Assembly (NCBI GenBank): GCA_902728285.1
Contig: CACVBU010001102.1
Coordinates: 1,754,335-1,818,334, forward strand
Direction of reading: 5' to 3'
DNA from: Clytia hemisphaerica
Taxonomy: Eukaryota > Cnidaria > Hydrozoa > Leptothecata > Clytiidae
DNA length: 64,000 bases
The position numbers and the translations under genes are program-made. Of the stretch, positions 1,162 through 63,172 are shown one piece after another (positions within the stretch are counted from its first letter, which is position 1; each line of letters starts with the position of its first letter). The notes beneath the pieces were generated by a model that saw nothing but the letters and a program-made list of their open reading frames with translations, was not told the origin of the DNA and ran no database searches.

Positions 1162-2710
1162 GATTAAAATACGCAATCACCCACAACCAGCCACAACCAG
1201 CCGGAAAAAAGGTACAATCAACCAGAAAAAGGTACAACCAGCCAGAAAAAAAGGTAGAACCACCAACTACCACCCAGAAAAAGGTACAACCATCCAAACG
1301 GAACCAACAAAGGCTGTAAAGATATTCTTTGGTATATCTTCAAACTGAATGAATAATATTTTTTTCAATCTCTTGTTAGTTACTTTTTTTTTTCTGCTGC
1401 AAATTATATTGAAACAGACTTTAGGTTGCAATTCCCAACATTATAGCTTTTTCTTTCCCTTTTTTGGGAGCGGCAAACGGATTTGACGGTGTGATGGTAA
1501 TCGAGCACTTTTTGCGTTAGTATCTTGGTATTTGTTGTCCAAAATAGCAAGTTGTACCTCCTCCCAGCACTGCAGTGTCTTTTATTTTTATAAGAATTTA
1601 GATGCTTTAGCTTTTTCTATGGTTTAAACTAAAATCATTTAATTTAGAACGCGCTAAATTAGAAAAATGAGAGTACTTACTTTCTTGGTATATCTTAAAA
1701 AATCCTTCAGTATTTCGGTACGTACGTAACTCTTTTACGCCCCCTCTTTTATAAACTGACAGTTGTGTTGAAAGAGAGATTTCACCTTGAATTTCTTTAT
1801 TGTTTTGTTATTAAGACACCAAGCACATGACTGGCTTCTTTTAAATAATTTCTGGATAACCCTTTGCCCCAAAGGTTGGTGCATGTTAGTAGACTTGGGT
1901 GTTGATTGTGAGAACTTGTTGGTTTTGTTTGACTTTATTTCTGGTCAACTCCAAATCAGAAAGCCCGTCCAGGAGACTTCCACTGCTGGACTTGACGTTC
2001 TGTCTTCCCTAATTAATAGTGGATGTAAGTCTCTCTCTCTTTAGGTTTTGTTGTCCGGCATGTTTTGTTATTACAACCCCCTATTCCCCCTAATTTTCAT
2101 TATTTTATCATTTTATCAATTTAGTCATTTTCAAAAAAAATATATATATTTTTTATCCTTTTACTTTCTTCTGTTAGCCTATTGTTTTTTTGTTAAAAGT
2201 GAACATGAAAAAATAGAAGATTTTTCTTACTTGATCAAAAACTTTACCTTCTGAAACTTTGAACTTCGCTGATATCAAATATATTTTCAGATTGTTTATA
2301 CCTTTCCGGGATCAGAAGCCATTTTTGAAGAATCCAGAAGCCATTTTTGCTCAATGAAAGATATGAAAAACCTGAAAACACTTTTGAATGAGCACAGTTC
2401 ATCTCAACGAGGTATTATACTTGTAGTTGTATTTTTCCCTTCAAGAAAAACGTATTGAAATGTGCAAATTGGCAATTTTTCGGAACAGACTTTAGTTCAA
2501 ATATTAAGGGAAGTAATTTTCGTGGAAATCATTTTTGCGTTGCGAGGATATGAAATGTACTGATTGTACCTTTTTTTGTATGTAATAGTTTAATTCATGT
2601 TGATGAAAAGGTAGCAACAAAGGCTAATAAAAATCAACGAGTGGTTGTGGGTGATGTTACCTTTTCTGGCTGGTTGTGGCTGGTTGTTGCTGATTGCGTA
2701 TTTTAGTATT
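1162..2710. mobile_element. 1.55-kb TIR element with iterated AACCAGCC words and a captured exon
   Basis: The left arm (from 1162) and the reverse complement of the right arm (ending about 2710) both read AAAATACGCAATCA followed by CAACCAGCCACAACCAGCC and GAAAA-GGTA, giving an inverted terminal repeat of about 65 bp with a few mismatches. The word AACCAGCC/ACAACCA is repeated along the left arm to about 1290. No transposase is visible, so the element is non-autonomous. The interior (about 1787-2411) holds exon-like sequence with splice signals that matches a second locus at 4543-4748, implying capture of host DNA. No clean target-site duplication (TSD) was found. Confidence 0.6.
2291..2411 (+). 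pseudogene. captured/duplicated exon, copy 1
   Basis: A 121-bp block bounded by ATATTTTCAG upstream and GTATTA downstream is nearly identical to 4628-4748, including about 85 bp of the preceding intron. In the open frame it reads IVYTFPGSEAIFEESRSHF and continues to SSQR. Three of the differences between the copies are third-position synonymous (TCC/TCA, TCA/TCC, TCA/TCT), so the frame was probably under selection. A possible upstream exon ends at about 2024 before GTAAGT, but its phase does not join cleanly to this exon, arguing for decay. I do not recognise the protein. The block lies inside the inverted-repeat element 1162-2710. Confidence 0.45.
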
Positions 2711-3427
2711 ATCCAATATTTATGACAAGCGAGTATATTAGTCTGGTAACAGCTTACCTTAAGCGATATTATTTAGTTATTTTTATTTATATTTCAATTC
2801 ACCTTGTCAAAACAGAAAAATACAAACTGACAGAACTTACTAATTGTAACTTTATATACTAGAAAAAGAATTCGTCTACTTTTCTTTGGGATTTCCTGGC
2901 AATAATCACTATGGTATTATTCAAGCTTTGACATCAAATTCGTTGTCTAGACATATCTAACTGTTTCTCCAAGGATCCTTCGATAGGGGTTCCTTTATCA
3001 AACTTCAAACAAACCGCAGGAAACTTCAAACAAATTATAAACAGCAGGGACTCAATTTTCAAACAAAATAAATCATTTATTTGGCCTAAGGGAAGTAGGC
3101 TGTCCTTTTATCCGAACTATTGCTCTTTTTGAGGTTTTAGATTTAATTCGATCAACTAATCTGTGTATATTGAAATTTTTGGTCCAAAAAATGATAGCTT
3201 CAATTAATTATTTCAGATTTGGAGTAATAACTTATTACGTATATCGAAATAGTAAAATTACTATTTCGATTAAAGGTTGCACAACCTCTATAAAACTTTA
3301 AACAGAATAATCTATTTAAGATTCTACCCAAGGGAGTTTCTCTACACAGTGATCAACTCTCTACTGGATCATAAATACTAGAAATTTTTTAACCTTTTTA
3401 AAGGTTTCTTGGGGAATATTTTCGCCT
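2711..3427. other. intergenic, no gene seen
   Basis: AT-rich sequence with no credible coding exon or recognised repeat. Two nearby AAACTTCAAACAAA repeats at about 3000-3065 are the only local structure noted. Confidence 0.4.
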
Positions 3428-3735
3428 AAAACACCCCCTTCTCACAAAGCCGGTAGGATGTTTTCAGCCGGTGGGGATAAAAATAACGGACTGAAGCTCG
3501 ATGGGGACTGGTATTCCAATATTTTTTATGGCTGGGATTTAAATTTTTTTGTTTTCAAGTCAGAAAATTCAGTGGGGAGGAGAAAAGTAGCATAATGTTT
3601 TGCAGTGAGGATTGGTTTATGTGATTATTTTCAGCGGGGACAAAAATTAGAGGATAATTTTCCACCGGGGACGATATTTTGGACAATTTTTCCGGTGGGA
3701 AGGGGTTCCACTGGGTCTGTGAGAATGGGGTGTTT
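3428..3735. mobile_element. 308-bp TIR element with iterated GGTGGGGA words
   Basis: The ends AAACACCCCCTTCTCACA and TGTGAGAATGGGGTGTTT are inverted repeats, and the next bases (AGCCGG / CCACTGGG) are partly complementary. Inside, CGGTGGGGA, GCGGGGAC, ACCGGGGAC and AGTGGGGAG recur. Relatives with the same ends (GTCTGTGAG...GGGGTGT) occur near 24896-25065 and at 51010-51300. No coding capacity. Confidence 0.65.
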
Positions 3736-4497
3736 CATCCAATTAAATTTTAGTTTTCCAATAATATTTATCCTGATTGAAGTATAAGTTTTGGCATTCC
3801 TTTATACTTTTATATGAAAAAATAAGGTTTCAACAAATATCATATTTGTTTGAAATGAAAATATTTATGCATTTTTATTTAGATAAGTTTTTAGATGAAG
3901 CGGATCTGCGAAATTGTGTTTTTGAAGCAACATGAACCTGTATAAGAGCGAACGGAAAGAATCCGAAAAATATTCTAGAAAATTATTGCGTAAGGATTTC
4001 TAAGTATATCACGTGATGTCAAATCTGAAGTGATTGTCGTGGGTTTTATTCCACATTTGATGTGGTTATGTTGCTATATACTTTCATAAGATTCTAATAG
4101 AAGTGAAAAGGGAAAAAGAAATTTCAAATATATTATTTATAACAACACTAAAAACAGTATGAAATTTTCATATTAAACTGTTTTTAAAAAGAAACTTTTT
4201 TATTCTGCTATAGGATAATGTGTCGTATTTTATTCAAAAGTACTTAAAATTTCGTGCATCATACAGAGAGATTTGATGAGGAATGAAATTGAAAATTGAA
4301 GAGAATAGAGGTTTGACCTGGCATGATATATTGTTGGTAAATAGCTCTTCAACGGAAGCTTAATTTGAGTTCACTTTTGAAGAAAAACTACTTCCCACTT
4401 ATTACTGATTTTAAGGATAAGAATTTTCATTCAAAAATTGTGTAAAAAAGTATTTTCATATTAATTTTAAGGCAGTAATAAATACACTTAAATGACA
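3736..4497. other. intergenic, no gene seen
   Basis: AT-rich DNA without a supported coding exon, RNA gene or recognised repeat. Confidence 0.4.
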
Positions 4498-4989: not shown

Positions 4990-5405
4990 AACGCGATGTT
5001 TAAAATTAATGGTATCCCCTTGATAGCTTTTACCATTATCTTTTACCTTTTTTGGACTTAAGTATTTTAGCTAATTCCTATCAAATACAAGAAGTAATAT
5101 CTTATATAGGCATCAACTTTATGAGAAAAATATATTTTGAACCATTAATTTTTAGCATTGGATGATTGCATGGTTCTTTCAAAGCAGACACGGAAAAGGG
5201 CCTTAAATGAAAATAATTATTTTTCTTGTAAGCATCATCTTTATAAGAACAATTATGTATAATTTTTCAACGACTAAGTTTTAGCTTTCGGTGATTGGTT
5301 CTTTCAAAGCAAACATGGAATAGCACCTAAAATGGGTGTGACTATTTTTATTATAAGCATCAGCTTTATAAGAATTAAATCGATAACTCTTGATAGACGG
5401 TGATA

Positions 5406-5673
5406 CACGTCTTTTTTTTTCAAGAAACACACTTTTAAGAAACATGAGGCTCAGAATGCCTAAAAACTAAGAAACATCTAAGAAACATGCTGAGGCTGAG
5501 AATGAGAAAATAACATTATTTAATTCGGTTTTTCATAAGAACCTTCCAATCAAGCTTAATTATGTCAAAAAGTTTACAAACATGTAAGAAACATTTAAGG
5601 CTCAAAAGGCCGATTTCTTAAGAAACATTGAGGCTGTTTGGTAAAACTAGTTTCTTAAAAAAAAAAAAACGTG
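5406..5673. mobile_element. TA-flanked CACG element, AAGAAAC subfamily
   Basis: The ends are TA|CACGTCTTTTTTTTT and AAAAAAAACGTG|TA, a short inverted repeat flanked by a TA duplication. AAGAAACA(T/C) occurs about seven times in the interior, and the same word (GTTTCTTA in reverse) abuts the right tip. Words GAGGCTCAGAATG, GAGGCTGAGAATG and AGGCTCAAAAGGCC are interspersed. It is closely related along its length to 41312-41618. No coding capacity. Confidence 0.75.
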
Positions 5674-5685
5674 TAAAAGGGTGGT

Positions 5686-12390: not shown

Positions 12391-12487
12391 TTATTTTTGA
12401 AAAATTATATAACTCTAACAATGTAATTAATACCGTTCAATACAAACTCCTTTTATTCAATAACTAGAGAAGTTTTTATGTTTAGTA

Positions 12488-12744
12488 CACGTTTTTTTTT
12501 ATAAGGAACACGTTTATAAGGAACTCGAGGCTGAAAATGGTCCAAAAAATAAGGAATTGTTAAGGAACTGCTCAGGCTGAGAACAAGAAAACAAGTTTTA
12601 AGGAACAGTAAGAGATGGTTATCCAAACTTAGCAGCTATGTAAATAAGGAACTCAATAAGGAACTTTGAGGCTGAAATTCTCTGTAAAAATAAGGAACTC
12701 AAGGCTCAGAGCAAAGTTAAGGTTCCTTATAAAAAAAAAACGTG
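12488..12744. mobile_element. TA-flanked CACG element, AAGGAAC subfamily
   Basis: TA|CACGTTTTTTTTTATAAGG and CCTTATAAAAAAAAAACGTG|TA are inverted ends. AAGGAAC(T/A) recurs about eight times inside, with GAGGCTGAAAATG and AGGCTGAGAACAAG words as in the element at 5406. The AAGAAAC of that subfamily is replaced by AAGGAAC both at the tips and internally. Confidence 0.75.
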
Positions 12745-12776
12745 TATATATATAAAAAATTAATAACCTTTTCTTA

Positions 12777-13574
12777 GGGTTGGTCTAAAAAGCAGGGTAG
12801 CCAATGGGGTAGCCAATTGGGCTAGGTTATGGGGTACCTCTTTTTGCCTAAACTTTTGAAATCTGAAACCTGTTTAATGTGGAAATAACTATTACAACAT
12901 CTTGTTAATGATTCCATGTAATAAGATTTAAGATTCCTTTCGAACTTCAGCCACAATAGCCTTTTTTCCAAAGGTACTGAACTTTGTTACTTCTCAAGAG
13001 ACCTGGCGCCATTTTGTCTTCCTTCTTGGCTTCGTTTGAAAATTTACAGACCCGAATAAAAAATATATACAAAACAGATTTATAGATTTATATAGATTTT
13101 ATTTATGTTTTTAATTGTTATTTCCGTGAAGCTGTAATTCGATGATAATAGCTTTGGAATCGCCTTTGGGCCATATGATCTCTAATCTTGTCATATCTTA
13201 ACAATCTTTTGTTATTGAATCTATTATTTAATTTAAATCATGTTTAGATGTTTCAAACAATTAATTCCTTTCAAAATTTTTAAATATGGCAGCTTATAAT
13301 AGGTACAAAAGGTCTTTTGAAATAGCTCTATTATAATGAAGCTCTATTTCTTACTCCTCGTGCATTAACACGTGGTAATTTATATCTTTGTTTATCTTTG
13401 GAATCATACATGATCAATCTAAGTATCAATCAGATTCATGCTCCCTGGTCAGTAAAATGTGGTTCTATGCATTCATTTTCGGTATTTCTATTCTGGTCTG
13501 TAAAATATTTAGGTACCCCACAACCTAGCCCAATTGGCTACCCCAATTGGCTACCCTGCTTTTTAGACCAACCC
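12777..13574. mobile_element. 798-bp TIR element with 8-9 bp target duplication
   Basis: Terminal inverted repeats of about 63 bp start GGGTTGGTCTAAAAAGCAGG and are almost identical at the two ends. CTTTTCTTA stands immediately before (12768-12776) and after (13575-13583), a target-site duplication of 8-9 bp as made by hAT or Mutator-like transposases. Within each TIR the word GGGTAGCCAAT is repeated. The interior has no transposase, so it is non-autonomous. Confidence 0.88.
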
Positions 13575-13583
13575 CTTTTCTTA

Positions 13584-16288: not shown

Positions 16289-16290
16289 TA

Positions 16291-16631
16291 CCTTAAAGGA
16301 AGAAATTTTGGCGGAAAGAAAATTTGGCGGATTTGGCGGATTTGACTGAAATCCGCCAAATTAAGTTCCCGCCAAAATTTATTTTTTCCGCCTTCCGCCA
16401 AATTAAATTCCCGTCAAATTAAACATTTTGAAAATATGATCTCTTTTAAGGTGTTTTTGCTATTTTTTCACTGTTTTGACGCCATCTAAAGGTTGAATTT
16501 TTAAGCGACCGCCAAATTAAATTCCCGCCAAATTTAGTTTTTTCGTCCATCCGCCAAATTAAATTCCCTCTGAAAAAACTTTTTTGGCCATCCGCCAAAT
16601 TAAATTCCCGCCAAAATTTCTTCCTTTAAGG
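16291..16631. mobile_element. 341-bp TA-flanked MITE made of TTTGGCGG words
   Basis: TA|CCTTAAAGGAAGAAATTT and AAATTTCTTCCTTTAAGG|TA are perfect inverted ends. The next word, TTTGGCGG, is reiterated throughout: CCGCCAAATTAAATTCCC or close variants occur about seven times in one orientation and GGCGGA several times in the other. No coding capacity. Confidence 0.88.
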
Positions 16632-16633
16632 TA

Positions 16634-17228: not shown

Positions 17229-17280
17229 TTATAAGAGGCCCCCCCAGCGGACCCTAGATTCACGCATTCACGCAAAAAAT

Positions 17281-18550
17281 TTTCGCAATTCACGCACTCG
17301 GGTAAGTTTTGGCATGTCTCAAAAACTGAAAATTACCATAATTTTTAGATCGCATTAGTCGATACCGTGAAAAGCACAGCTCAAAATCATATATTTACGC
17401 TGTGCCGACGAATCGAGATTCTATTCAGCGCGCAATCAACGAAGACAAAAGTAACCATGACGACCATCCAAGATCTTGGATGAGGTTCAAAGTTGACATT
17501 TTTATTCCCGTCGTTGAAAAGACAACAAAAAAATATCATCAATGCTTTTTAAAAAGAGTCAGTGATAGAGAATCATAACATAAAGTATGTCTATTATTTC
17601 GATTCAATTGAAAGTGACATTTCCATAATTAATAGTTTAGTAATTACTGTTATACATTTGGGGATCATGTAAAAGATTTCTTTCGAAAGAAACTCACTTC
17701 GATTACACTTGGAGGTTTCTGGGGAATTCGTAAATAGTAAACTGCATACTGATACAGTTTGCTAGACATTAATAAGGTATTATTTACTCTTCATCTTTGA
17801 TTCTTTCTACAATGATTAGATTGACACATGCGCGATAAAATTTCTATTATCGGTCTTCAGAGGTTAATATCCTTCGAAAACTTAACCTCTGATACTCAGG
17901 GTAATTAGTCGACAGAAGATGACCAAACAAATGACTGAACATGAAGGGTACTATGATGAAGTTTCTAACCTGATGTGTAACCTAATTGTTTTTTCACTCA
18001 TTTTCGCGAAAAAGCGCAAAAACTGATTATTACGTCATAATCGATGACGTCATGAAAACTAAAAATTGAATTTCTCAAGAATGGTTTATCCAATTGTCTT
18101 TAAACTTTCACCAAAGATGTATCTCATTAAAGTCGATCATTTAAAAAAATATTTTTTTCGAAATTCTGATTACATTAGCAAAAAATAGGACTTTTAGTTT
18201 TTACTGATTTCTGCTGCCGTCATCAAAATTTCAAAAAAATATTTTTTTCAAATGATCGACTTTAATGAGATACATCCTTGGTGAAAGTTTGAAGACAATT
18301 GGATAAACCATTCTTGAGAAATTCAATTTTTAGTTTTGATGACGTCATCGATTATGACGTAATAATCAGTTTTTGCGCTTTTTCGCGAAAATGAGTGAAA
18401 AAACAATTAGGTTACACATCAGGTTAGAAACTTCATCATAGTACCCTTCATGTTCAGTCATTTGTTTGGTCATCTTCTGTCGACTAATGCGATCTAAAAA
18501 TTATGGTAATTTTAAGACATGCCATAACTTACCCGAGCATTCACGCAAGT
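17281..18550. repeat. long near-perfect inverted repeat (hairpin)
   Basis: Arms 17905-18165 and 18225-18487 are almost exact complements over about 260 bp with a spacer of about 60 bp (for example ACTTTAATGAGATACATC against GATGTATCTCATTAAAGT). Pairing continues outward (CGCATTAGTCGA, CATAATTTTTAGAT, CTCGGGTAAG) once the insertion at 17363-17904 is removed. A transcript would fold into a double-stranded RNA of more than 300 bp. Confidence 0.88.
17363..17904. mobile_element. 542-bp insertion with 8-bp target duplication inside the hairpin arm
   Basis: TTAGTCGA stands at 17355-17362 and again at 17905-17912, and the sequence on either side pairs continuously with the opposite hairpin arm only if 17363-17904 is removed. 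The ends TACCGTGA and TCAGGGTAA are weakly inverted. An 8-bp duplication is typical of hAT-type insertion. No coding content. Confidence 0.72.
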
Positions 18551-19811
18551 TTTTCTCGAAATTCACGCAAACCCGATTTTTTGGGAAATCGGGGAAATTT
18601 TCGGAAAAATCGGGGAAATTGTCAAACATTTCTACAAATTTGGGTGAAAAGCCAGTTTGCTGAGTCTGAATTATCAGAGAAGTCGTTTGTTTTTGTTAAG
18701 TAGTCGAGAGTGGGGCAGACGTTAGAAATTACAATCTACTATAAATGGTAAAATGCCCTCGTATACGAGGCCCCCCAGCGGAACCAAAATAGCAAGGCTG
18801 CTACACTCGAGATATTTTCGACCGGATCTGGTCATGCACTTGAGAAAAACTTAGCTCAGTAGTGATTTTTTCCTGTACACTTGACTATAAGCACATTAGC
18901 TTAAAGCGCTACGTAAGTTTTTAACTTTAATCACATGCCATCACGCAAAATATTTGATTCTTCTAACATGTCACTGTCGTTTAGAAAAGGTGAAACCTCT
19001 CCAGTTAAGGTATCGCGATAGTAAATTTTTGTACAAAAAATATTTTAATCATTATCAAAAATAGGTCAAACAAACTCCAGGGTGACACCATAATGCTTAG
19101 CTAAGGGGTAAGGAGGTGCAACCATGGTTTGCGCAGAGAGGGAATTTTTTGAATTTCTGTCACCTCGCGTTTGGCTAAAAATGCTATCTTTAATACCATT
19201 GAAAAAGAATGTAGTCTAAATTCGTTAAGAGGCGAGGTACGATCGCTTGATAGTTTGCAAAATGAGGTAAAAGGATGAACATTTGTTGCGAGTGAAGCGA
19301 GCAAACAAAAATTTTAAAAAGAATAGTTTTAATCAGGGCTCGCGTCTTGATTTCCTAACGTGTAGGGGCCGAAAACATAGTGACTAAGGGAGGTGCAACC
19401 ATGGTTTGCGCCGACAGGGGAAAATTTCTATTTTCACACTGCTCTGATGTGCTTAAATACGACTCCATTTCAGACTGATTTTGCCAAGAAATGAGGTTCT
19501 CAAAAGTCTGCATCATGGGTATTAAATATTTCTTTGAATTAAAAATTTTTGGTGAGGCCTGACTAAACTATACTTGCACTCGACTTTTGGCGAGTGCCGC
19601 ACTCAAAATCTCGGACAATCGTGCCACGTTCTGCAAACTGGGTGAAAAGGGAAATTCCCCGAGTTCACGTAAAAAACAGGGCAGATTCACGCATTCACGC
19701 AGTTGAAATGGATTTTCACGTTCACGCAAGTTTTTTTAATTCACGCATTCACGCATTCACGCAACCAAAAAAGCCCATTCACGCAAACCGCTGGGGGGGG
19801 GCCTTATAAAA

Positions 19812-23011: not shown

Positions 23012-23464
23012 CCAGCAGACCCCGCGCTCGATAGGATCGATCATCGGAACGGCTCGATGACGGATCGATATGTGATCGATGGATTACTTAACGATCCGGA
23101 TAGGAGATCGATAGAGGATCGATACTCAAGATTTTTTTAAGCTTATGATTAGTTATCGATTATTTATTGATCTATCATCGATCTTTTATCGATCTCGATT
23201 TACGATCGATAACAAATCGATTGACGATCGATGACGAATCGATTAACGATCGATGACGAATCGATTAACGATCGATGACAAATCGATATACTCGATTGAA
23301 ATAGTAGCTCGATAATGGATCAACGAAGGATCGATACTCAAGACTTTTTAATGGCTGAATCTTCCATCGATCTCCTATCCGGATCGTTAAGTAATCCATC
23401 GATCACATATCGATCCGTCATCGAGCCGTTCCAATGATCGATCCTATCGAGCGCGGGGGTCTGG
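23012..23464. mobile_element. 453-bp TIR element built of GATCGAT words
   Basis: Terminal inverted repeats of about 95 bp begin CAGACCCCGCGCTCGATAGG and are almost identical at the two ends. More than 20 GATCGAT/ATCGATC words fill the element. ATACAG precedes (23006-23011) and follows (23465-23470), a possible 6-bp target duplication. No coding capacity. Confidence 0.85.
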
Positions 23465-23506
23465 ATACAGACAATTTAATAACAAATTTACCCAAAATGA
23501 GAAAAT

Positions 23507-27437: not shown

Positions 27438-27439
27438 GT

Positions 27440-38200: not shown

Positions 38201-41200
38201 AGTGGATATCCAGTTAGTCATCATTAGTCTTTACTAATAAAAAAGTAGGATATCCAGGGGGTTCGATACTTCGAAAAATCAATATCCTCAACAGTGGGGG
38301 TAAAATTCTTTTCTGGAAAAGCCCATTTGAGGAAAAAACAAACAAACAAATCAATCTAGAACTAGCATTCTTTTCCGCTCTTCCAAGTCATCAACTTTTT
38401 TAATCCTTTGACAAGGAAATTCATCACGTGATGCACATTTTAACCAATAAAATTTGATAATTATTTCGAATGAAAATTAACACTACTCGTATAGGTCACT
38501 GAAAGATTATCTAATCCGAACACATACGATCACACCTTTATTTAGTTTGATCACGGTGCTCTGTTGGTGAACAAGTATTTTCATATTATGCTTAATGCAA
38601 GACATTCGTACATTGATATCTAGAACTACTAAGTTTACTGTTGCCAAGCCCTTTGATCTTCATTGTTAGACATATCCTTTACAGCCTTATAACCTGTTTA
38701 GAGATGAAATTATTTTTAAAAACAACTGTTTTAAGTTCTTAGTCAGCCCAGGTGACTCTTCAAATCGGTTCGACGATTTTTTTCCCACTGCTCGTTAATA
38801 CTTTAAGTTTTAATTCCGATTTCGGATTATTATCGGGAAACAGGATTTCGGAATTACTTTGCGCGCGAAAATATTTTTTCTTAGTAAGATAAAATAGGAC
38901 GAGAAAAACACATAACATAAAAAGACGCGTATAATTAATAAGAAAAAAAGAAAAAAGATTCTTTTTTGCGTCATATTCAATAGTTAATTAAAGATACTTT
39001 TGCATTGTAAATAAAGAAAGAGAACTAATTATAGAGAAAGTGAGTATTAAAGAAATTACTTTTCTTTGAATAATGTTAAGTTGTATACTACTTGTAGAAA
39101 TTTTTCTATTTGGGTCTTTTATTTTATTGTCATGACAAGACACCCCTCGAGTGTTTTTTATAATCTGATACATGTTTTTTTTATAAGCAAGTGTATGCCC
39201 CTTGGTCAGGCTCGTGTATGCTTAAGTTCTCAAAGTATCCAGGCATAGTTTATGCTTATTATATGCTTAAGAATTATGCTTATGATTCACCCCGAGCCAA
39301 GTTTTTTAATGAAATTTCAGAAATTTTATAAAAAATTTGCTCAGATTTTGGGAGCAGTGGAATGTAGCTAGCCGTGGAATGTCTTATTTTTTACATGACC
39401 TCTACCAAACCAGTTAAAAATGAAACAAAAACAAATAAAAAATACCTCTTGAAAAATATTTTAGGCTGACATATATGCTCATGTTATGCTTAGGAATTCT
39501 GCAAATCTGAGCCTTCATATGCTTATAAGCGTTATTCTTATAAAATATAAAAAAAAACATGTATCTCTGATATAAACTAGACAGGTTCGAGCTGTGAGTC
39601 CAATTTTGGACTCACATTTTTAACAGTTGAACAAGCGTAGGACTCACTCACTGAATAAAAATGAGTAAACGACTGGACCACAAAAAATCGCGCTTTTTTC
39701 TGAGGCAGTTTGAAAAGAGAAACTAAAACAAGCTTTCATTGGCTAATTCATCAACTGTCATTTTGAGGAGCGAGATTCAAATTCAATACGGCAATGCTAT
39801 TAATTTGTTTCGCCGACTTCTGCTTTGGACGGATCCTACTATGCACCACTACTTTTTCGTCTGAACGTTTCAAGCAAAAAGATACGCTCTTTTAAGCTTT
39901 TCAGATTTTAACAAAGCTAGATCTCTTATTTGTACTTCTAAGCCTTATGGGCTGACTTTCCAGCGCAGCTGGTTTATTCGCCTTTAAATGTTCTCAAGAC
40001 TCTTTTACCAAAAAAACAAGTGTAATTTATCAGCCTTGACTTTCATCAATCCATATAACAGGTGGCACAAACTGTAGAAATTCTTTTCGAACGATTGAAC
40101 ACAATGAATATCACGTGCATAGACAGGTTTGTGGTCTCCAACGTTTTTCTTAATATATCCTTATCGGAGTTTTTTATTTTTCTTAAAAAGTGATGCATTG
40201 TGGGATTGTTTCGGGAGTATTACAATAGAAATCTCTTAGGAATTTCTCGTGTGAATTCTATTGTAATACTCTCGAAACAATTCCACAATGTATCGCTTTT
40301 TTAGAAAACTCAAAAACTCCGATAAGGTCTATTAGTTTAGTCCGTCAATTTTACTAATGTTTTTTTTTGAAGAAAAAAATATGTTAGAAGGTACATCACC
40401 AATTCCCAATGGAAAGAAGATTTATTTAATTATCTTACAATCACAACAAACCCACATGAGTCGGTAACGATTATTCAAATGATATTGATAGTCAGTAGAT
40501 TTGTTGATAGTTAATATTGATATTCATATTCTAGGACTGGCTAGCCGATTTGGATATCTCTCTTTGACTTCAGAAGAAGCAGAGGTTCGAACTGGAAAAA
40601 CCTGCTTTTTTGGCGCTGACGCCTTAGACCAGTCGCCAGTCGGACCTTGCTCCTTTATTTGAAAGCCTTTTAATTGGAGTCCTCTTCTTTTTTTCAGATT
40701 TATAGATTGGTTTTCGTATCATTTGAGTAATTTCTCTTATAAATGGTCGTGGGATGACTGGTAAGGGCTGTGTTTGTTTGTTTGTTTGTTTGCTTTTATT
40801 TTGTGTATGGACTTGTTGGTGGAACTGTTCTGTGATAAATTACGCTAAATTGAAAAGTAGAGTAGAGTCTCCGTAACTCTAATAAGTTTTATGGTCCCTT
40901 CATCTACAATTTTCCACCTTTCAATTCAGGATACCATATGTTGACCATAGTCCCGATGATAACAAAGTTCGATTCATTTCTGAAGTTCTTGGAAAATGTC
41001 AGAGGTATAATTTTTTTTACTGAGAGTAACTTATAAATATCACGATGTCATGTTGAATAATCTTTAAAACACTCCCAGCAGATTCCAGTATCAAAATAAC
41101 GATGAGAAAAACTTTTGCATTTTGCATCAGTGACCCGTGTGTTATTTGCTTTAAATGCTTTAAATGCTGGAGTTTTTCATGATGATTAGGAAAATGTTTT

Positions 41201-44200
41201 ACTTTTGTTCCTCACTCCGTGACCTTTCATTACCCTTATGCTGATTGCTCGTTTACATACTTGATTTTCTTAAAATATTAAGATAAACTTACTTTATAAG
41301 AAGGTTTAGTACACGTTTAGTTTATTTTTTAAGAAACACACTTTTAAGAAACATGAGGCTGAGAATGCCTAAAAACTAAGAAACATCTAAGAAACATCTA
41401 AGAAACATGCTGAGGCTGACAATGAGAAAATAACATTTTTTAATTCACTTTTTTTTAAGAACCTTCCAATCAAATGTTTTTTTTCTATGCATGAATAATA
41501 GGCTGATTATGTCAAAAAGTTTACAAACATTTAAGAAGCATTTAAGGCTCAAAAGGCCGATTTCTTAAGAAACATTGAGACTGCTTGGTAAAACTAGTTT
41601 CTTAAAAAAACAAACGTGTATTCTGTTAAAAGTAGAGTCCGTCTATTCGGGTATTTCTTTAATTAAATTTAAATTTGAAATTATTTATTCAGATCTACCT
41701 ATCAAGATAAACTGGTCAGTACACTTCCGTCAGAAATGCAATCTTTACTTCCAGAGGCTACCCAAGGTTTCTTCAGGTTCGAAGCAGCTGAAAACGGTAC
41801 GTATTTATTTAGTTTTCAACTATATTATTTATATCATCATTGAAACACTTGCGTGCTTATCGACCTCAGTTTGATAGCGAACTACTAAACTGAGGAACAT
41901 CTTGACATACTTTTGGATTTCAATCACGCAGTATAATCTTTGCTTAGTGGATAAGAACTGTAAAGTACTGAATTGAAGATTAGCTGATATCTATTGTTAA
42001 ATATATTTCAATCATAATAAAGGGCTTCTTTTACTTTGCATTTATCTCCATTTCTAACTTCCACAACGTGTTTAATCAAATGATTAAACTAATCAGTCCT
42101 CTTTTTCGAAGGCACTTTGTGGCGTAATAAGGGACGGCGTAAGGGATCGAAATTAAATTAGGACTGGACTAAAAAAGGAAAAAGATTAAGGTTTGGCGTA
42201 AAAGGGGCCGACAAGGTAATTGAAAATTTAACCGTAATTTTTTTGGAATTTTAGAGGAAAGTGGTCATGCAGTTGTGCGTAAATTGATTGATGGCATCAA
42301 GACAAAAAAAGATACGCACGATTTGCTTGGAGTATTATACGAAATACCTGCTTCGGATAAATCCTTCTATGCGACAGACGAAGCTATTGGTAAGTAATAT
42401 TTTTTTGATAAAATCCGTATAATTATCAAGAAAAGTTATCTTTCAATTATATGGCTCTGACATCATCGATTCGTCTAACCTTGATATTCCGTATATTATA
42501 AAAATTGCTTTTGAAGAGCATCGTTTCCTACAAATACAACTTGGATCAGCCCCTAGCCTTTACCAAATTTCCTTTGTGAAAGCGATAACACAAAGTTAAA
42601 AACATTTTCAAAATCAAGATTTTCTATGGGTGGTTTGATACATGGTAGAATCCTTCTAAATATTCTATTCCAGGCGATTTCTAAAACAGGCTAGGCAAAA
42701 CCGAAAAGGTCCATCTAGAGTAAAGTGGTCCTCTTGCAATATTCACTAAGTGTTTCCCAGTCTCGGCTAGGTCCAGAATGGAATTTCCCTTATAACTTCA
42801 ATCAAATATGAAAAATCGTGGTGAGTGATTTTGTCCGGTAAAATTAAATAACCTGATTGAAGTCTTTGCCAATTTATAAAGAACTGCATTCATTTCGATC
42901 GTTTGTAACAACAGTACTTTAATTGTATTTATTTAGGTCCGGCAATCGATAATAACATTGCAGCTTTGAGAATCGAATGTTTTGTGTTGACCATCCTGAG
43001 AGCTGGATTGAAATCCATCAGTCACACATACAGTGCTTTGACCAAGTATGTATCTTTTTTTCTCTAATGAAATCTCGATCATTAAATAGTTATTAATTTG
43101 TGACATAGAATGCCCCCCCCCCTGAGCTTATGGGGGGGGCTAAACCATTTTTGCTTGATTGGGGGCTGTATTTTTCCAAAAATAGGGGGGGGCTGATTGT
43201 TGTGTAATAGAACTGGGGGTAGAGCTGATAGGTTGAAGATATTTTGAATTATGTTAAAAATCTATGCTGTGGGGAAGGTTTTATCCCTCTTGAAAAAAAA
43301 TTATTGAGAATTCGCATACGAAATTCCTTTGATATTTTGCTTTGTGAAGGTGTGGGCTATGTTTATTAGCCCCCCCTGAAAAATACTGGGCGGTGGACCC
43401 CTCTGCGCACTATGATTGTGATTTTTTGAATCGTAGTATTTGTGTTAGTAACGGTTTTAAATTATTTGTGTCAATTTCACCATCAAATCAAAACCTTTCA
43501 ACCATATTATTTATATAAACTAATATGAGAGCGACTAGAGTATATCATGCACTGCTCAAGTGATAAAGTAGCCTTTCACTAAAAAGTTGCATTGGGCTTT
43601 TCCAGAAAAAGATTTACCCTCACTGTTGAGGATATTGATTTTTCGAAGTATCGAACCCCCTGGATATCCACTCTTAAAAATATGCTCAACCCCCTGGATA
43701 TCCTCTCTTATAAAGATGCTTACCCCCGGATATCGTATTTTTTACGTATTTTTTACTTGAAAAGACACTTTACCCCCTGGATATCTGCTCCCTTATAGAT
43801 ATTTAACCCCTGGATATTCACTTTTGAACAAAAATCGTTAACCCCTTGGATATCCGATATCTTCAAACAGGGGGGGGGGTACGGACTATTTCTGGAAAAG
43901 CCCATTTTGAGAAATGTTTTGTCAAAATGACATTTGTGAATAAATTTATCAAGAGCTTTAGGTGAACAATTGAGCGCTCTTTTCCATTGTTTAAAATCAT
44001 GTTTTAAGCCATCATCATTTTGTTTAAAATTGTTTTTTTTTTCTTCAGATTTCACTCGTTATTTACAGAAGTCATCACCACCCGATCTGAACAAATGCAT
44101 TGTCTCAGAGCTGTACGCGAATTTTGGGGACGAAATCCACTGGTATAAACTAAAAGCTGTTTCTATTCTTTTTTCCCCGCCAATACACCTTTTCGACCGT

Positions 44201-50200: not shown

Positions 50201-51697
50201 CCAAAAATTTCAAACATTCTGATTATTCATTTAACTGACTGGTGCATTCAACTGTGGGCTTTTCATTATATTTTCTAACTCTCTTTTTTCTCTCCAGCGC
50301 TTCACAATGATCATCTCAGAACATATCGCAGAATGTGAGAAAGAAGGAGTAAAGGTTGCTAATCTATGGTATCGATATACGCTGCAAAGATTACAAGAGA
50401 TATTCCTTTTGGTATGAACATTTTTCTTCTTTTTTTAATTTTTTAGTTTTAGAGTTAATACTACCTTATCGGGGAAAAAATGTGACGAAAGTGACGAAAA
50501 TTTTGAGGGGGTGACGAAATTTTTCCCCCGATATTTTATCATCCGACCAAAACTTTTACGTGATTCTTTTATCCCCGACCAAAACTTTTACCCGATTTTT
50601 TAAACCCCAACTAACATTAAAATCTAATTTTTTTACACCTTTATTAACCGAAAATAGTACTTTAAACGTCGAATTACAAGATCTTTTTTCGAGCTAGTGA
50701 AGAAATGTCGGAGTTTTATTTAGTCGGGGAAAAATTTCGTCACCTAGAGGTATTTTCGTCACTTTCCCCCGACCAAAATTTCCAATTCGTCACTTTTCCC
50801 CGACGAAATTTACAATTTAGTCACTTCCACTCAACTAAAATTGTCCAAATGAGATGGACATTTTTTCCCCGATAAGGTATTCTTAAAAGTCGCTGAAGGG
50901 ATGTCATATTAGTGTTGTGGGTGAATCAAGAAGCTGAAGAACAATTAGACGAACAAAGGTTAAATTCGAGCATAATAATATCGATAGAGAAAAGAGCTGG
51001 CCGGTGAATTACACCCCTGTATCACGGACCCGCTGGGAACCCAGCCCCACTGGATAATCGGGCAAAGATTTCGTCCCCGGTAGGAAATTACCCTGGAATC
51101 TAGCCCAGCTGCGAAATTGACTTATACTTCATCCCCACTCGAAATTAAATGTTTAATAATTGCACTCCAAAACCATCCCCACTTGATTTTTTAACCTTTG
51201 AACGACCATAGAATTTCTATCCCCATTGGGATTTTAATAGGAATTTTTATCGCTACTAAGGAAAAAAAATTCCACCGGGGCTGTGAGACAGGGGTGTCTA
51301 ATTGCTACATTGAAATAGAATAAAACAATGCATTTCTCGAAACCTGCAAATTGTATGCAAACTGATGATTTGATATATCTCGTACGTACATTTGGGCTCT
51401 TCCAGAAAACAAAGCCTCTGTCCAGACAGAGGTATTCAAAAATACATTCTGATCATAGCCTAAGAGGTGAATTTGCAAATGGGATGGAATATCGAAATAT
51501 CCAGGGATATTTTTTTTTTTTAATATTTGATTTTTATTCATTTTTCGGACTGTTTCTCAACAATACAGTTTCTTCATTTTTAGTATCATAACGAAATCGA
51601 TCAATACGCTGACAAGATTGAAAAGTTGATCTTCACTCCAGATATCGCTCCTCACATCTTAGAAGTTTTCAAACGATACAAATCACTACGATCTTGA
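32273..51697 (+). CDS. NCBP1: nuclear cap-binding protein subunit 1 (CBP80)
   Basis: Scaffold subunit of the nuclear cap-binding complex; with CBP20 it holds the m7G cap and links it to splicing, 3' processing and export. I join 26 coding exons, all with GT-AG ends and matching phases: 32273-32315, 32516-32610, 32873-32973, 33214-33298, 33770-33841, 34164-34271, 34514-34561, 34688-34761, 35010-35079, 35590-35703, 35970-36071, 36592-36689, 36848-36911, 37793-37903, 40062-40126, 40698-40760, 40930-41004, 41693-41796, 42255-42389, 42937-43045, 44049-44142, 44851-44954, 45299-45425, 48795-48956, 50298-50411, 51584-51697. The sum is 2451 nt, 816 residues plus stop, close to the usual ~790. Diagnostic stretches: [15 protein letters not shown] and [10 protein letters not shown] (first MIF4G-like domain), [45 protein letters not shown] with [35 protein letters not shown]. 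Exon 24 adds an acidic stretch. Introns carry many repeats but the frame is intact. Confidence 0.96.
36123..36377. mobile_element. CATG-type element, AAGCAT subfamily, NCBP1 intron (36072-36591)
   Basis: ATGTTTTTTTTATAAGCA at the left and TGCTTATAAAAAGAAAAAACAT at the right are inverted. TAAGCA(T/A) words recur about six times inside, with GAGCCTTCATTTTCAGAA, the complement of the GAGGCTGAAAATG word of the related elements. The flanks are degenerate, so the exact ends are approximate. Confidence 0.6.
38006..38325. mobile_element. GGATATCC element, NCBP1 intron (37904-40061)
   Basis: GGGCTTTTCCAGAAA-type ends (here TTGGCTTTTTCAGAAATAG and TTTCTGGAAAAGCCC) enclose a series of GGATATCCAGGGGGTT words. 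It is the same element as 43593-43904 but in the opposite orientation. No coding content. Confidence 0.8.
39171..39561. mobile_element. TA-flanked CATG element, AAGCAT subfamily, same intron
   Basis: TA|CATGTTTTTTTTATAAGC and AAAAAAAAACATG|TA form the ends with a TA duplication. TATGCTTA(A/T) recurs about eight times, with CAGGCTCGTGTATG and CCGAGCC words. It is a third variant of the elements at 5406, 12488 and 41312, with AAGCAT in place of AAGAAAC/AAGGAAC. Confidence 0.72.
40159..40327. mobile_element. 169-bp palindromic MITE, NCBP1 intron (40127-40697)
   Basis: CCTTATCGGAGTTTTT at the left pairs with AAAAACTCCGATAAGG at the right, and the arms (about 75 bp) include TGCATTGTGGGATTGTTTCG and its near-complement. 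The tip CCTTATCGG is shared with the element at 50464-50877. Confidence 0.85.
41312..41618. mobile_element. TA-flanked CACG element, AAGAAAC subfamily, NCBP1 intron (41005-41692)
   Basis: TA|CACGTTTAG...AAACGTG|TA; near-copy of 5406-5673, including AAGAAACATCTAAGAAACAT and GGCTCAAAAGGCCGATTTC. It ends 74 bp before the next NCBP1 exon (41693). Confidence 0.8.
43110..43395. repeat. G/C-run repeat, NCBP1 intron (43046-44048)
   Basis: A cluster of GGGGGGGCT and AGCCCCCCC words (GCCCCCCCCCCTGAGC, TAGGGGGGGGCTGA, TTAGCCCCCCCTGAAAAAT). It looks like a further inverted-word element, but clean ends are not visible. Confidence 0.45.
43593..43904. mobile_element. GGATATCC element, NCBP1 intron (43046-44048), inverted to 38006-38325
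   Basis: GGGCTTTTCCAGAAA at the left and TTTCTGGAAAAGCCC at the right are 15-bp inverted ends. ACCCCCTGGATATCC occurs about six times inside. Comparison with 38006-38325 shows similarity along the full length in reverse orientation. Confidence 0.85.
46005..47823 (+). mobile_element. 5'-truncated CR1/L2-like LINE, NCBP1 intron (45426-48794)
   Basis: The unit runs from a truncated 5' end through a reverse transcriptase frame, a short 3' UTR (47733-47790) and a terminal (AAT)n microsatellite at about 47791-47814. AAAGAACG(A)CAAATTT at 45989-46004 and AAAGAACG(G)CAAATTT at 47824-47839 are a likely 16-bp target duplication with one mismatch; the left flank also contains extra copies of AAAGAACGACAAA, so this is not certain. 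The endonuclease half is missing. Confidence 0.72.
46176..47732 (+). CDS. non-LTR retrotransposon reverse transcriptase (5' truncated)
   Basis: 518 residues from the first ATG; the frame continues upstream without a stop to about 46091 ([19 protein letters not shown]), showing that the ATG is internal. Reverse transcriptase motifs in order: NYRPVSLTS (84-92), FDFAKAFD (154-161, first catalytic Asp), [14 protein letters not shown] (210-223), FADD (241-244, catalytic pair), then the thumb and the C-terminal AQSVWQP and WNALP regions typical of the CR1/L2/Rex/jockey group. The apurinic endonuclease usually upstream is absent. The uninterrupted frame inside a host intron implies a recent insertion. 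It cannot retrotranspose by itself without the endonuclease half. Confidence 0.93.
   Translation: MIDIPEISLETITRQIKQLDPSKSFGPDEIHPLMLKELVDFVAEPLKIIMNKTLEESVLPEDWKMAHVTPIYKNKGAHNLAINYRPVSLTSIVCKMMESVLRKAIMDHLVEENLLSEKQYGFIGKRSTVTQLLYYIDQCCETMAEGKVVDCIYFDFAKAFDTVPHRRLKKKLECYGVGGSLLNWITSFLSDRKQLVKVNSAKSTTNPVVSGIPQGSVLGPLLFVIYINDLPEKVVSDAFLFADDTKIVKTIDSVEDSIAVQRDIDEMEKWSQDWLLTFHPDKCHVLTIGKFANIKHAHRYQLGGNELEHVFEEKDLGILIDSELTFEEHISKQVNKANSILGVIKRSFNDLSPSAFCTLYTTFVRPHLEYAQSVWQPKLRRSINLIEGVQRRATRLIPQYRNLHYEERFKRLKLPSLEFRRLFSDMVQIYKHIHFYDPQTTRNKFVKKSRPTRFHHHEFVPNFADDGFRGAQTKSFYYRSIPTWNALPRFVIESTSIKSFKESLNKAWEKHQLRYLTY
49179..50098 (+). mobile_element. GGACCTACC-family element, NCBP1 intron (48957-50297)
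   Basis: Starts TTTTTGGACCTACC and ends GGTAGGTCCATTCAGCATGT like 30527-31829. The internal units differ: GGCAAATTTGGGCCAAAA and CTAAAAATGGGGTTTT replace the GCCGGAAA words, so the ends are conserved while the core has diverged. Confidence 0.75.
50464..50877. mobile_element. 414-bp TA-flanked MITE with TTCGTCAC/CCCCGAC words, NCBP1 intron (50412-51583)
   Basis: TA|CCTTATCGGGGAAAAAATGT and ACATTTTTTCCCCGATAAGG|TA are perfect inverted ends with a TA duplication. CCCCGACCAAAA, TTCGTCAC and GTGACGAAA recur about a dozen times. The terminal CCTTA resembles the elements at 16291 and 40159. Confidence 0.88.
51010..51300. mobile_element. GGTGGGGA-type TIR element, same intron
   Basis: ACACCCCTGTATCACGGACCC at the left and GGGGCTGTGAGACAGGGGTGT at the right are imperfect inverted ends. 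ATCCCCACT words recur. It belongs with 3428-3735 and the fragment at 24896-25065. Confidence 0.7.
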
Positions 51698-56565: not shown

Positions 56566-56980
56566 AACAACAGGTTTCGTAAGCTTTCGTTTTTGATTGG
56601 CTAGTTTGGTGGATATTTGCCGGTCGGTCCCTTCTAAAAAAACGAATACAGTACACTCTTTCGAATTAAATCTTGAGAAAAATAAAATTTACTTCGTAAA
56701 GGAAAAAAAAGCAAGAGTAAACAAAACTCAAGTCGGCAGGGCATTTCAGTTGCCATTTGTTTTATTGACTTGATATTTATTTCGTGCGAATTACATAATT
56801 ACGCGGAATCAGAGCAAAGAACTCATCCAGTATAACAGCGCAAATCTGATGCAAAACTAGACCTTTTTCTATAACTTGAAAATAATATCAGATTTTAAAC
56901 GCAGTTCTACTTGTAATTAAAATTTCCTTTTCTCACATTATTCTGTGTTCTATCAAAGCAATGTGGATTATTTGTATTCA

Positions 56981-57795
56981 GGGGGGGGTCAAGCAGTTAG
57001 TACAAGACATCATGCCGGTTAGTACCGTGGTGGTATACCTACAAAAGTTTCAAAAATCAGTTAGTACTTGATGGTACTAAGTGACTGCTAGGGTGGTGTC
57101 AAGTAAAAAATCTAGGAAAACAGTTAGTACAAATGAATACTAAGTGCTACTTTTTTACCTTTTCTAGAAAAATATTAAAAATAAATACTAAAAGCAATCA
57201 GGGAAATCCCCCTCCATAAGAGAAATCAAAGAACCTAAGACATTTAAGTCTTCCCCTTTGGAGTTTGTTTGGTATTACCCTTTAGTTAAACACTATATCA
57301 GGGGAATTCCCTAACTATAGATTGATAAATAAAAGAAAAAAGTCAGATCGATTTTGAAATTGTAAAAGTTCGTAATCTTGTTCTTTATAAATCATGAAAA
57401 AGTATTTTTTTCTGCCTTGATTGAACGCTACATATTATGTTTATGTTTTTGGTTTACGGTGTTTCATTATTGTATCAATTGAGAAGTACTTCGTTATTTG
57501 AAACTCTTGTACATATATCGCTGTACAGCGTTGTGTTAAAATAAAATTTTTGATTCATTTTAATTCATCATACCAAATCAATAACTGTGTCAAAACAATT
57601 TTGGGAACATGGTTTGACAAAAAGTAAATATCACACTCTCGTTTGATAGGTTTTAAGGGGTGGTCCTTAGTGAATTTCCTTTGAAATCACTTAGTATATT
57701 TCATACTAACTGTCAAAGGGTGGTGGTGTGGCCTCTTTCCTCCAAAGAATCACTTAGTAGGCATGATGTCTTGTACTAACTGCTTGAACCCCCCC
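56981..57795. mobile_element. 815-bp TIR element with AGTTAGTAC words
   Basis: GGGGGGGTCAAGCAGTTAGT followed by ACAAGACATCATGCC is inverted exactly at 57764-57795 apart from the length of the G run. AGTTAGTAC, GTACTAACTG-like words and GGGTGGT recur near both ends. The interior (57180-57640) is plain AT-rich. Relatives: 5686-5815 and 62360-62441. Confidence 0.85.
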
Positions 57796-58005
57796 TGTTG
57801 TATTTTTTATAAAATTATCTCTTTCTCTATAGAAAATTTGATATTTTTCCCAATACAGAGCTAAAAATTACTTTTCTCTTTCTATGAAAAGAGATGATAT
57901 ATTTCTTCATATCATCTAAACGAATTCTTTCGCAGCAAAGTCGTTTCTTCTGTGAACAATACAAGAAAAATAACTTGAAAAAACAGCTAACACATAACTC
58001 ATGAT

Positions 58006-59977: not shown

Positions 59978-59979
59978 TA

Positions 59980-61856: not shown

Positions 61857-62230
61857 TAAAGGCTTGGGGACACGAGAAGTTTTTTTCGCGCTGGTGCAAT
61901 GCAACATGCTCCACCCCACCAACACAAGAAAAAAAGCGTGTTCCATGGTTTCTTTTTTTGTTTCATGGGACAAAAATTCAGGAAAATACCCGAAAGACAC
62001 GCTGATCTTGTCCCTGCGACAATTGAAATTAATTCAAATCAATTTTGATCCATTGCCCCCAGGGACAAAAGTGAGAGACACACATATGTTATCAAAGGTG
62101 TTGTCGATTTCACTTTTATTGGTAGAAAGAGGAAAAGGGTGGAGACACGAGTAAGCATTTCAGGTTGGTGGGATGGAGCATGTTGCATTGCACCAACACG
62201 AAAAAAAACTTCTCGTGTCCCTAAGCCTTA
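61857..62230. mobile_element. 374-bp TIR element with CACGAGAAG/GTGTTGGTG words
   Basis: The left arm AAGGCTTGGGGACACGAGAA followed by GTTTTTTTCG and TGCAATGCAACATGCTCCA is repeated inverted at the right (TGGAGCATGTTGCATTGCA, CTTCTCGTGTCCCTAAGCCTT); arms are about 70 bp. The open frame 61819-62154 is explained by this element. No transposase. Confidence 0.78.
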
Positions 62231-62359
62231 ATGTAATGAGTCATAATTATATTGAGTCATCTGAGTCATGCAATTATAATCTCGGGCATTATTCTGAAAG
62301 TTTTGGATAAAACTGAAGTTTATATTTGTATCATGTTAAGATCGAAATGAAGACGTATC

Positions 62360-62441
62360 TAACAGGGGGCCAAGCAGTTACTACAAGACACTACGCCTAC
62401 TAACTGCTTTTTCGCAAGAAGTTATAATAACACCACCACCC
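62360..62441. repeat. truncated copy of the AGTTAGTAC element
   Basis: AGGGGGCCAAGCAGTTACTACAAGACACTAC resembles the left end of 56981-57795, then GCCTACTAACTGC and CACCACCACCC. It stops where the element at 62442 begins. Confidence 0.6.
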
Positions 62442-63172
62442 TTTTTGGACCTACCTCCGGGTACCCCGTTTTCATTACACTTTTTCCATATAATTGGTTG
62501 TTTTTTCATTCAAAAACATTACTAATAGCAATGCCCACCATCAAGCATGTTTCAGTTTCAATTTTTAATGAAATTGATTTTTGAAGCTGTAACTATTTAA
62601 AAATCGCCGGAACAACCTATTTTCTCCGCAAAGACAGTATTTCTTGAAATTTTGCACACTGATGCAATATGACAATACCTAAAATGTGACGAAGCCCGAT
62701 TTTCGAAAAACATTTTTTTCCGGCCGAAATATGCCGGAAAAACCGGTTTTTTGACATTTTCTCGAATTTTCATCCTTAGTTTTTTCTGACTTTTTGCAGA
62801 AAGATACGTATTCGCAATGCTCAACACATGACCGAGTTCGATTTTTGAGAAGAATTTTTATTCCGTCCAAAAATGCCGGAAATTTCCGTTTTTGTTGATT
62901 TTCATTGGATTTTTTCGTTTTATTTCTTTGTTTTTTTCAAACATAAACATTATTTATAAGAATATCCATGATTAAGCATGGTTCAATTTTCAATGAAACT
63001 GATTTTGGTACAGGAACTTTCTAAAAATCGCCAGAACAGCCGAGAATCGCCGGATTTCTTGAATATCTCGAGTTGTTCTTGTATTATTCTGCATTTTCAT
63101 ACTATTGTTGTCATTTTTCAATTGTCTTATTACATCAATCTTCAGGTAGGTCCATTCAGCATGTAGCTTGTT
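62442..63172 (+). mobile_element. GGACCTACC-family element, third copy
   Basis: Starts TTTTTGGACCTACC and ends GGTAGGTCCATTCAGCATGT plus AGCTTGTT. The core has the GGCCGAAATATGCCGG words of 30527-31829 but fewer units. Confidence 0.75.

Follow-up and report, generated by a model that had tools for sequence, protein, structure and literature searches.

Concerted differences in subterminal word arrays between related transposable-element families of Clytia hemisphaerica

Introduction

Short motifs repeated near the ends of DNA transposons are known from the soybean CACTA element Tgm, in which two subfamilies share the same tip and carry a different subterminal motif, and whose authors predicted further such cases (excerpts of PMC2613891). 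How the specificity of a transposase and its binding sites can coevolve without killing the element is a general question. The material here is a window of DNA from the hydrozoan Clytia hemisphaerica (the whole stretch analysed, 64,000 nucleotides; assembly GCA_902728285.1, contig CACVBU010001102.1, positions 1,754,335 to 1,818,334). An earlier note on this window had reported non-autonomous terminal inverted repeat (TIR) elements built around a short repeated word, treated here as 13 families (E1-E13). In this work, related families were found to keep their tip and layout and to use different words, switched together.

The elements of the window resemble plant CACTA elements (En/Spm, and soybean Tgm as far as the excerpts describe it) in having a conserved tip and many short subterminal motifs in both orientations, and the subterminal motif array by which CACTA/EnSpm elements are recognised is present in them. 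They differ in several respects. A CACTA tip was not found in the families read, whose tips are TACACG, TACCTTAA, GGGCTTTTCCAG, CCAGACCCC, CAGGGG and GGGTTGG; the flanking duplications are TA or 3, 6, 7 or 9 bp long; many elements measure a few hundred base pairs and can be spanned by the array; and several superfamilies occur in one genome, with the layout kept across word changes.

In the hAT superfamily, several copies of AAACGG are bound cooperatively by Ac transposase; Ds1 elements retain the tips, some with a few hexamers and many with none (excerpts of PMC3260210). The BED domains of Hermes bind positioned subterminal repeats (available portions of PMC10368747). The likeness to Ac/Ds and Hermes, as these portions present them, lies in multiple short sites, bound by transposase in those systems, and in short non-autonomous members that keep the tips and some words. 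Unlike hAT elements, the families read here show no 8-bp duplication, and they often have more words per short element. Galileo repeats have been discussed as secondary transposase binding sites open to positive selection (excerpts of PMC3573991). The ends are internally repetitive here as in Galileo/Foldback (P superfamily), but the units are words of 7-8 bp with short TIRs, whereas the same excerpts describe units of about 210 bp in long TIRs; the long TIRs of tandem repeats typical of Foldback/Galileo are absent from the array elements. The TIR arms of the array elements are 21-44 bp (100 bp in E8), and no arms were detected at 20 bp in E2, E3, E4 and E11.

The elements are also like the E2F miniature inverted-repeat transposable elements (MITEs) of Brassica, as partially described, in that several superfamilies are rich in a short motif, and the E6 words fit what we take to be the E2F consensus. 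Unlike in the Brassica MITEs, for which binding by host E2F is reported (excerpts of PMC12595863), the words here are private to subfamilies and their binding is putative. No report of concerted word switching in animal MITEs surfaced in a literature search that had most subscription papers beyond its reach.

Word differences between related families

Word arrays occur in multicopy families, their layout is kept in two superfamilies and word differences are concerted in three. That related families keep tip and layout and switch their words together is the new result. The superfamily with the tip TACACG, which includes E3 and E4, was sampled as 40 elements drawn from the first 100 tips in the list of 10,358 (all on contigs C1, C3 and C8) plus four others. 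A tip word could be classified in 40 of these 44 elements (the unclassifiable L137, L140, L152 and L153 were excluded before word classes were counted), and 181 of 190 internal words matched the class of their own tip, with at least one odd word in 7 of the 40. When internal words were shuffled among elements in 2,000 trials, the matches had a mean of 55.0 and a maximum of 75, figures that measure purity and not independent events because the copies of a family are relatives.

The consensuses of the four TACACG subfamilies place the words at positions 20, 35, 68, 79, 117, 163, 175 and 209 (GAAC), 18, 33, 64, 75, 158, 169 and 202 (AAC), 19, 34, 67, 78, 115, 172, 183 and 217 (AAT) and 17, 32, 64, 75, 181 and 215 (AAAC), and in all of them an inverted word lies 18-19 bp from the right end. 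The successive spacings common to the four are 15, 31-33 and 11 and, further along, 33-34 followed by 30-32 to the inverted end word; a spacing of 11-12 before that of 33-34 is kept in three of the four. Seven slots were compared (one is absent in AAAC, and the sites at 117 and 115 were left out). Pairs among GAAC, AAC and AAT show an identical pattern of differences at 7/7 slots, and pairs with AAAC show it at 6/6, apart from an extra T/C at the first AAAC site. As judged from these consensuses, the TACACG case rests on the identical change at each site and not on higher word conservation. The same new word at several homologous sites is not readily given by independent point mutation. A second motif beside the words, compared by eye, is also subfamily-specific (GAGGCTGA, AAGGCTT or CATGATG), and the tip reads CACGC in 14/14 AAT elements and CACGT in 12/13 AAC, 10/10 GAAC and 3/3 AAAC elements.

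For the TACYTTAA superfamily, 51 elements and fragments were assembled: 30 E6 copies found by similarity, 20 found by a pattern for non-G tip words, and one in L035. The internal words of the 29 elements with a G tip word were 274 TTGGCGG, 3 TTAGCGG and 1 TTTGCGG, with no TTCGCGG, and those of the 18 elements with a C tip word were 161 TTCGCGG, 2 TTAGCGG and 4 TTTGCGG, with no TTGGCGG. Two elements lacked a readable tip (11 G words in one, 6 C words and 1 T word in the other), one with T at one tip contained 7 TTCGCGG, and one with an A tip contained no words. The sites at 19, 35, 44 and, inverted, 64 from one end are present both in the E6 consensus and in seven of nine C-word elements. L092 has an E6-type tip and carries the C word at six of seven internal sites. 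In the GGGCTTTTCCAG superfamily, which includes E11, 23 elements and fragments were sampled (20 of 83 tips plus three others); 12 had GGATATC(C) without GGAATTC(C), 11 had the reverse and none had both. The GGATATCC and GGAATTCC elements correspondingly number 12 and 11, none of them mixed.

A possible further word pair was noticed in inverted-repeat ends, with tandem CAGGACA at window positions 10889-11829 and tandem CAGGTCA at L033:381-1371. The tip pattern CGGTTNGT designed for this pair had 2 matches in the genome and was not used.

Word arrays in the window

The 13 families were examined in 15 element copies (Table 1), and every word named in the earlier note was located at its place. In an exact-word test, the count in each copy was compared with the maximum of 200 dinucleotide shuffles, with TIR copies counted and words picked after the sequence had been seen; the word exceeded all shuffles in 14 of the 15 copies, and the sole miss was E2, where GGTGGGGA is present once exactly. 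A stricter test took as its word the commonest 7-mer of the outer 60 bp with at least two G/C (outer 45 bp for elements below 260 bp), counted it only in the remaining interior, and was passed when at most 3 of 300 shuffles reached the observed count. Eleven copies pass this test of an unchosen word, E1 by way of TACCTTT and not of AACCAGCC, and E2, E5, E10 and E13 fail it (6/300 for E13). The element ends used in these two tests and in the tip-recurrence test below are 0-8 bp off those in Table 1. Scoring by summed 8-mer prevalence was dropped, as AT-rich words and satellites dominated it, and the stricter 7-mer test was used instead.

The other TIR elements of the window, unnamed in the earlier note, do not pass the stricter test (0/12, two of them E2 relatives), and among the TIR elements in the flanks of fetched loci 3/15 pass (L029, L035 and L007, the last tandem-repeat-like). 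Three failing flank elements, L043 and two in L033, show arrays by eye; L043 fails because the G/C filter discards its AT-rich word, and the second L033 element because its array sits within the outer 60 bp. The word-array architecture is real, yet it is not general: only a minority of the TIR elements tested show it.

The earlier note had described at least a dozen sequence-unrelated elements in which the tip word recurs inside, usually in both orientations, and in which the arrays fill the whole element. A shared architecture holds for most of the named families, but the AAGAAAC (E3) and AAGGAAC (E4) elements are homologous, and E7 and E9 both look composite. The arrays run through the short elements E3, E4, E6, E8, E11 and E12 (about 260-450 bp), and through E2 only with a looser word; in E1, E5, E7, E9, E10 and E13 most words are close to the ends. 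Inverted words are present, but a strand bias is common and can be strong, as in E3 and E4 with six or seven same-strand words and one inverted.

The claim that the tip word itself recurs did not hold. The outermost 14 bp, with up to two mismatches allowed, were found again inside at 2 of the 24 ends of 12 of the 15 copies (E2, E3b and E11a left out); the internal match of the left end of E7 is the second element end near 18766, and for the left end of E11b the start used lay 3 bp inside the true end. In E4, E6, E8 and E11, the median score of internal pseudo-tips was at least that of the real tip in the stricter-test run. Because the outermost 14 bp seldom recur and pseudo-tips score like tips, the repeated unit is a subterminal word inside the tip, and the tip is a different, non-repeated sequence. 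The word units recur internally as 7-8 bp without flanks. Helical phasing, an idea prompted by the spacings in E8 (11 and 22 bp), E9 (10-11 bp) and E13 (22, 42 and 63 bp), was rejected: 78 spacings from 13 elements gave a resultant of 0.19 at 10.75 bp and a higher one (0.22) at 12 bp. A search of Rfam at gathering scores gave no match.

Table 1. Word-array elements of the window, with their coordinates and words
Feature	Coordinates	Strand	Description
E1	1165..2705	+	AACCAGCC words confined to near the ends
E2	3430..3734	+	GTGGGGA/CGGGGAC words, many about 30 bp apart; fails exact-word and stricter tests
E2 relatives	24872-25061 and 51011-51297
E3a	5404..5675	+	TA-bounded; TAAGAAAC array, 6 same-strand words and 1 inverted
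E3b	41310..41620	+	Second copy of the TAAGAAAC family
E4	12486..12746	+	E3 homologue; TAAGGAAC on the same layout, 7 same-strand words and 1 inverted
E5	12777..13574	+	Two GGGTAGCCAAT words per end; internal array absent
E5 9-bp duplication	12768-12776 and 13575-13583		CTTTTCTTA
E6	16289..16633	+	TA-bounded; 12 TTTGGCGG words, one with a mismatch
E7	17236..19806	+	Apparent composite; ATTCACGCA words, nested inverted-repeat insertion, second left end near 18766
E8	23012..23464	+	ATCGAT words, often 11 bp apart; duplication ATACAG at 23006-23011 and 23465-23470
E9	23496..27448	+	Apparent composite; GGCCCGAACATG-related words near the ends, nested inverted-repeat element inside
E10	27440..27926	+	Tip CTTCTAATTGCACG; AATTGCACG words near the ends; internal amplification not significant
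E11a	38007..38324	+	GGGCTTTTCCAG-type tip; GGATATCC array
E11b	43594..43903	-	Second GGATATCC copy, inverted relative to E11a
E12	50462..50879	+	TA-bounded; CCCCGAC and GTGACGAAA words
E13	56979..57797	+	AGTTAGTAC words near both ends only; duplication TTGTATT at 56972-56978 and 57798-57804

Copies elsewhere in the genome and their duplications

Tip searches were run over the 417-Mb, 951-contig assembly, with reversed patterns as controls. It is important to consider that the resulting figures are tips and not elements, that an exact pattern match was required, and that the counts cover E3/E4, E5, E6, E8, E11, E12 and E13, leaving out E1, E2, E7, E9 and E10. The 10,358 tips of the E3/E4 relatives compare with 3 for the reversed pattern; E5 has 423 tips, E8 201, E13 133, E12 118 and E11 83 strict tips, each with a reversed control of 0. 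For E6, a first look gave 2,187 candidates; the 40 matches that were scored, among them the window copy, are 339-350 bp long and 96-100% identical. In the families sampled elsewhere, the architecture belongs to the family and is not confined to individual copies. E5 and E6 combine TIRs, a duplication, no coding capacity and many near-identical copies, as MITEs do.

The architecture had also been said to span several duplication types, and this was confirmed for TA, 6-bp and 9-bp duplications and extended to 3-bp and 7-bp ones, but the 8-bp type was not seen in the families read. The duplications are of 9 bp in E5, and of 6 bp in the window copy of E8 and in 3/3 other copies read (L155-L157). 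In E11, the 3-bp duplication AAT, ATT or ACT flanks 14 of 16 closed copies, two of them when one altered tip base is allowed. The 30 fetched E6 copies are TA-bounded with few exceptions, a boundary at which a TA duplication and the TIR end are indistinguishable because TA is its own reverse complement. Duplications in the P-element superfamily are 7-8 bp long, and E13 has this size, with 7 bp in the window copy (TTGTATT) and in L154 (GTTTTGC). Further AGTTAGTAC-type fragments, related to E13, lie at window positions 5690-5810 and 62350-63200.

Search for an autonomous partner

The search for autonomous relatives that the earlier note had proposed yielded one lead and no enclosing transposase. 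Long tip pairs were read for E5 (4.0 and 5.4 kb), CGCGG (5.5 and 3.1 kb), E13 (2.4 kb) and E8 (2.8 and 4.4 kb), and were rejected as autonomous elements, there being no transposase in the frames scanned. In a Pfam scan of 10 larger frames of the long elements, the only match was a reverse transcriptase in L069; the 9 larger frames scanned from L070, L074, L075, L154, L155 and L159 had no Pfam match. The L069 frame, of 900 aa with endonuclease and reverse transcriptase (RVT_1) domains, is inserted within an E5 copy. L159 (C197:170400-174960) is an E8 element whose minisatellite-like insert brings it to 4.4 kb and has long repetitive open frames on both strands.

The transposase searches were made with two families only, both common in the genome and picked by duplication size: P-type PF21787, with 150 matches genome-wide, and DDE_Tnp_4 PF13359, with at least 152. 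The lead is on contig C341, where a P-type frame carries RNaseH_N and GTP-binding domains (L161, C341:58400-62400) and the frame before it matches THAP weakly (21.1 bits, below the Pfam cut-off of 23.9). Upstream, an E13 tip lies 7.2 kb from the RNaseH match; downstream, about 0.3 kb beyond the last frame, there is an E13-type tip with AGTTAGTAC words. The two tips have the same orientation and do not enclose the P-type frame. By a rough estimate, about as many cases of such proximity between tip and transposase are expected by chance. Because E13-like ends are common, occurring at three places in the 64-kb window alone, the C341 transposase is a lead only.

Possible function and origin of the arrays

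The arrays are probably groups of sites bound by an element-recognising protein, for which plant CACTA and Ac/Ds elements offer precedents; this would most likely be the family transposase, acting through its DNA-binding domain, or an accessory protein encoded by an autonomous partner. What we infer is protein binding to the words, a protein encoded by the elements, and selection of the binding for mobility. Among the causes offered by the earlier note, protein binding is favoured because the words differ in concert between subfamilies with the same layout. The conserved outermost tip would direct cleavage, and the word sites, at their fixed distances, would recruit and position the protein. 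Should the specificity of that protein shift in a source lineage, the sites would follow, and the outcome would be related families with the same tip and layout and a private word.

A bolder proposal, which we advance tentatively and regard as possible rather than likely, is that the word arrays form a separate address code: unrelated superfamilies in one animal genome would have converged on a tip plus a private positioned array, and concerted switching would prevent cross-mobilisation. If this were true, families would remain separate through a word change made at every site, with tip and layout preserved. With matched subfamilies in one genome (four words on one layout and two further pairs) and many copies of them, the path from word to word may be read from intermediates. 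Large numbers of near-identical short sites have also been seeded in the genome and could act on host regulation.

Several observations weigh against the interpretation of the words as protein-binding sites. Between TACACG subfamilies the words, at 71-86% identity, are hardly if at all better conserved than gapped spacers, at 57-70%. Words and spacers were also compared by circular shift in seven sets (6 to 30 copies per set, length-selected among fetched copies), a test with little power for young or small families. Three sets speak for the interpretation, with words that vary less than spacers (AAC, 0/196 shifts; AATT, 7/192; AAT, 10/256); in the other four, words are not better conserved (E6, 112/288; GAAC, 70/203; CGCGG, 105/398, despite a Fisher p of 0.006; GGATATCC, 218/241, where words vary slightly more than spacers). 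Because the E6 copies were retrieved by their resemblance to E6, little weight falls on their purity; moreover, the sampled copies are kin, which leaves eight word types in three superfamilies as independent evidence, with the layout compared in two. No transposase was found in the larger frames scanned of the seven longer elements read (L069, L070, L074, L075, L154, L155 and L159). Among the matches listed for the two transposase families searched, and for most tip patterns among the first 100 tips, no PF21787 or PF13359 hit lies between inverted tips by eye, which is weak evidence. In Hermes, about 70% of the activity in cells is left when the inner subterminal sites are mutated (available portions of PMC10368747).

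The words could instead be sites for host transcription or chromatin factors that take the element to open chromatin or S-phase. We consider this rather unlikely overall, although it is a serious rival for E6, whose two words, TTTGGCGG and TTTCGCGG, agree with TTTSSCGS, taken here as the E2F consensus. ATCGAT, the E8 word, is presumably the core of the DREF site. One host factor could serve elements with different duplications, and in Brassica, MITEs from several superfamilies have amplified E2F sites (Henaff 2014, as cited in excerpts of PMC12595863). However, although the genome contains both E6-type words, sampled elements are pure for one or the other, and a single host factor tolerating G or C would permit mixed elements; the four different TAAG words on one layout likewise fit element-specific proteins better. 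A host factor does not by itself explain the purity of the words. It is also conceivable, but unlikely, that the arrays arise by mutation, through slippage or unequal exchange of a subterminal unit, and are functionless, their purity reflecting re-amplification in each lineage. The E8 array is minisatellite-like with an 11-bp unit, ATCGAT occurring 47, 27 and 19 times in L155, L156 and L157, and E8 may be largely minisatellite; E3b has three tandem 11-bp CTAAGAAACAT units and E3a two. Against such an origin, spacers differ within an element while word positions hold between subfamilies, re-amplification is not expected to rebuild the same irregular layout, and in two superfamilies each subfamily has its own word at conserved positions between diverged spacers. 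Mutation stays a rival for E8, E2 and E12.

The remaining explanations fit the data far less well. That a replication or repair mechanism copies tip sequence inward, another cause offered previously, agrees with the occurrence of words both in the TIR and inside, but it is very improbable given that the outermost 14 bp return at only two ends, one of them (E7) explained by the second element end, and that the unit copied would be 7-8 bp without flanks. A chance or low-complexity artefact of an AT-rich genome would account for the four failures in the stricter internal test (E2, E5, E10 and E13); against it stand the 14 copies that exceed all shuffles and the searched families, whose tips number from tens to thousands where the reversed patterns give 0 to 3. 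This explanation is hardly credible in general, and it is refuted for E3/E4, E6, E8, E11 and E12.

Other features of the window and of fetched loci

Outside the window, L041:1-1480 is a dense satellite with repeated inverted segments and GTCGACC words. Within the window, a tandem repeat of 152 bp in about 5.9 copies (Tandem Repeats Finder, TRF) occupies positions 30613-31581, and a reverse-transcriptase frame of 547 aa (RVT_1) lies at 46089-47732. The frames at 57991-58875 and 60345-61313 are similar, tandem and membrane-protein-like, with no Pfam match at E 0.001, and the second is broken by a stop at about 60761. A long frame at 7898-10540, apparently intronless, has the domains of a class C G protein-coupled receptor (ANF receptor and 7tm_3).

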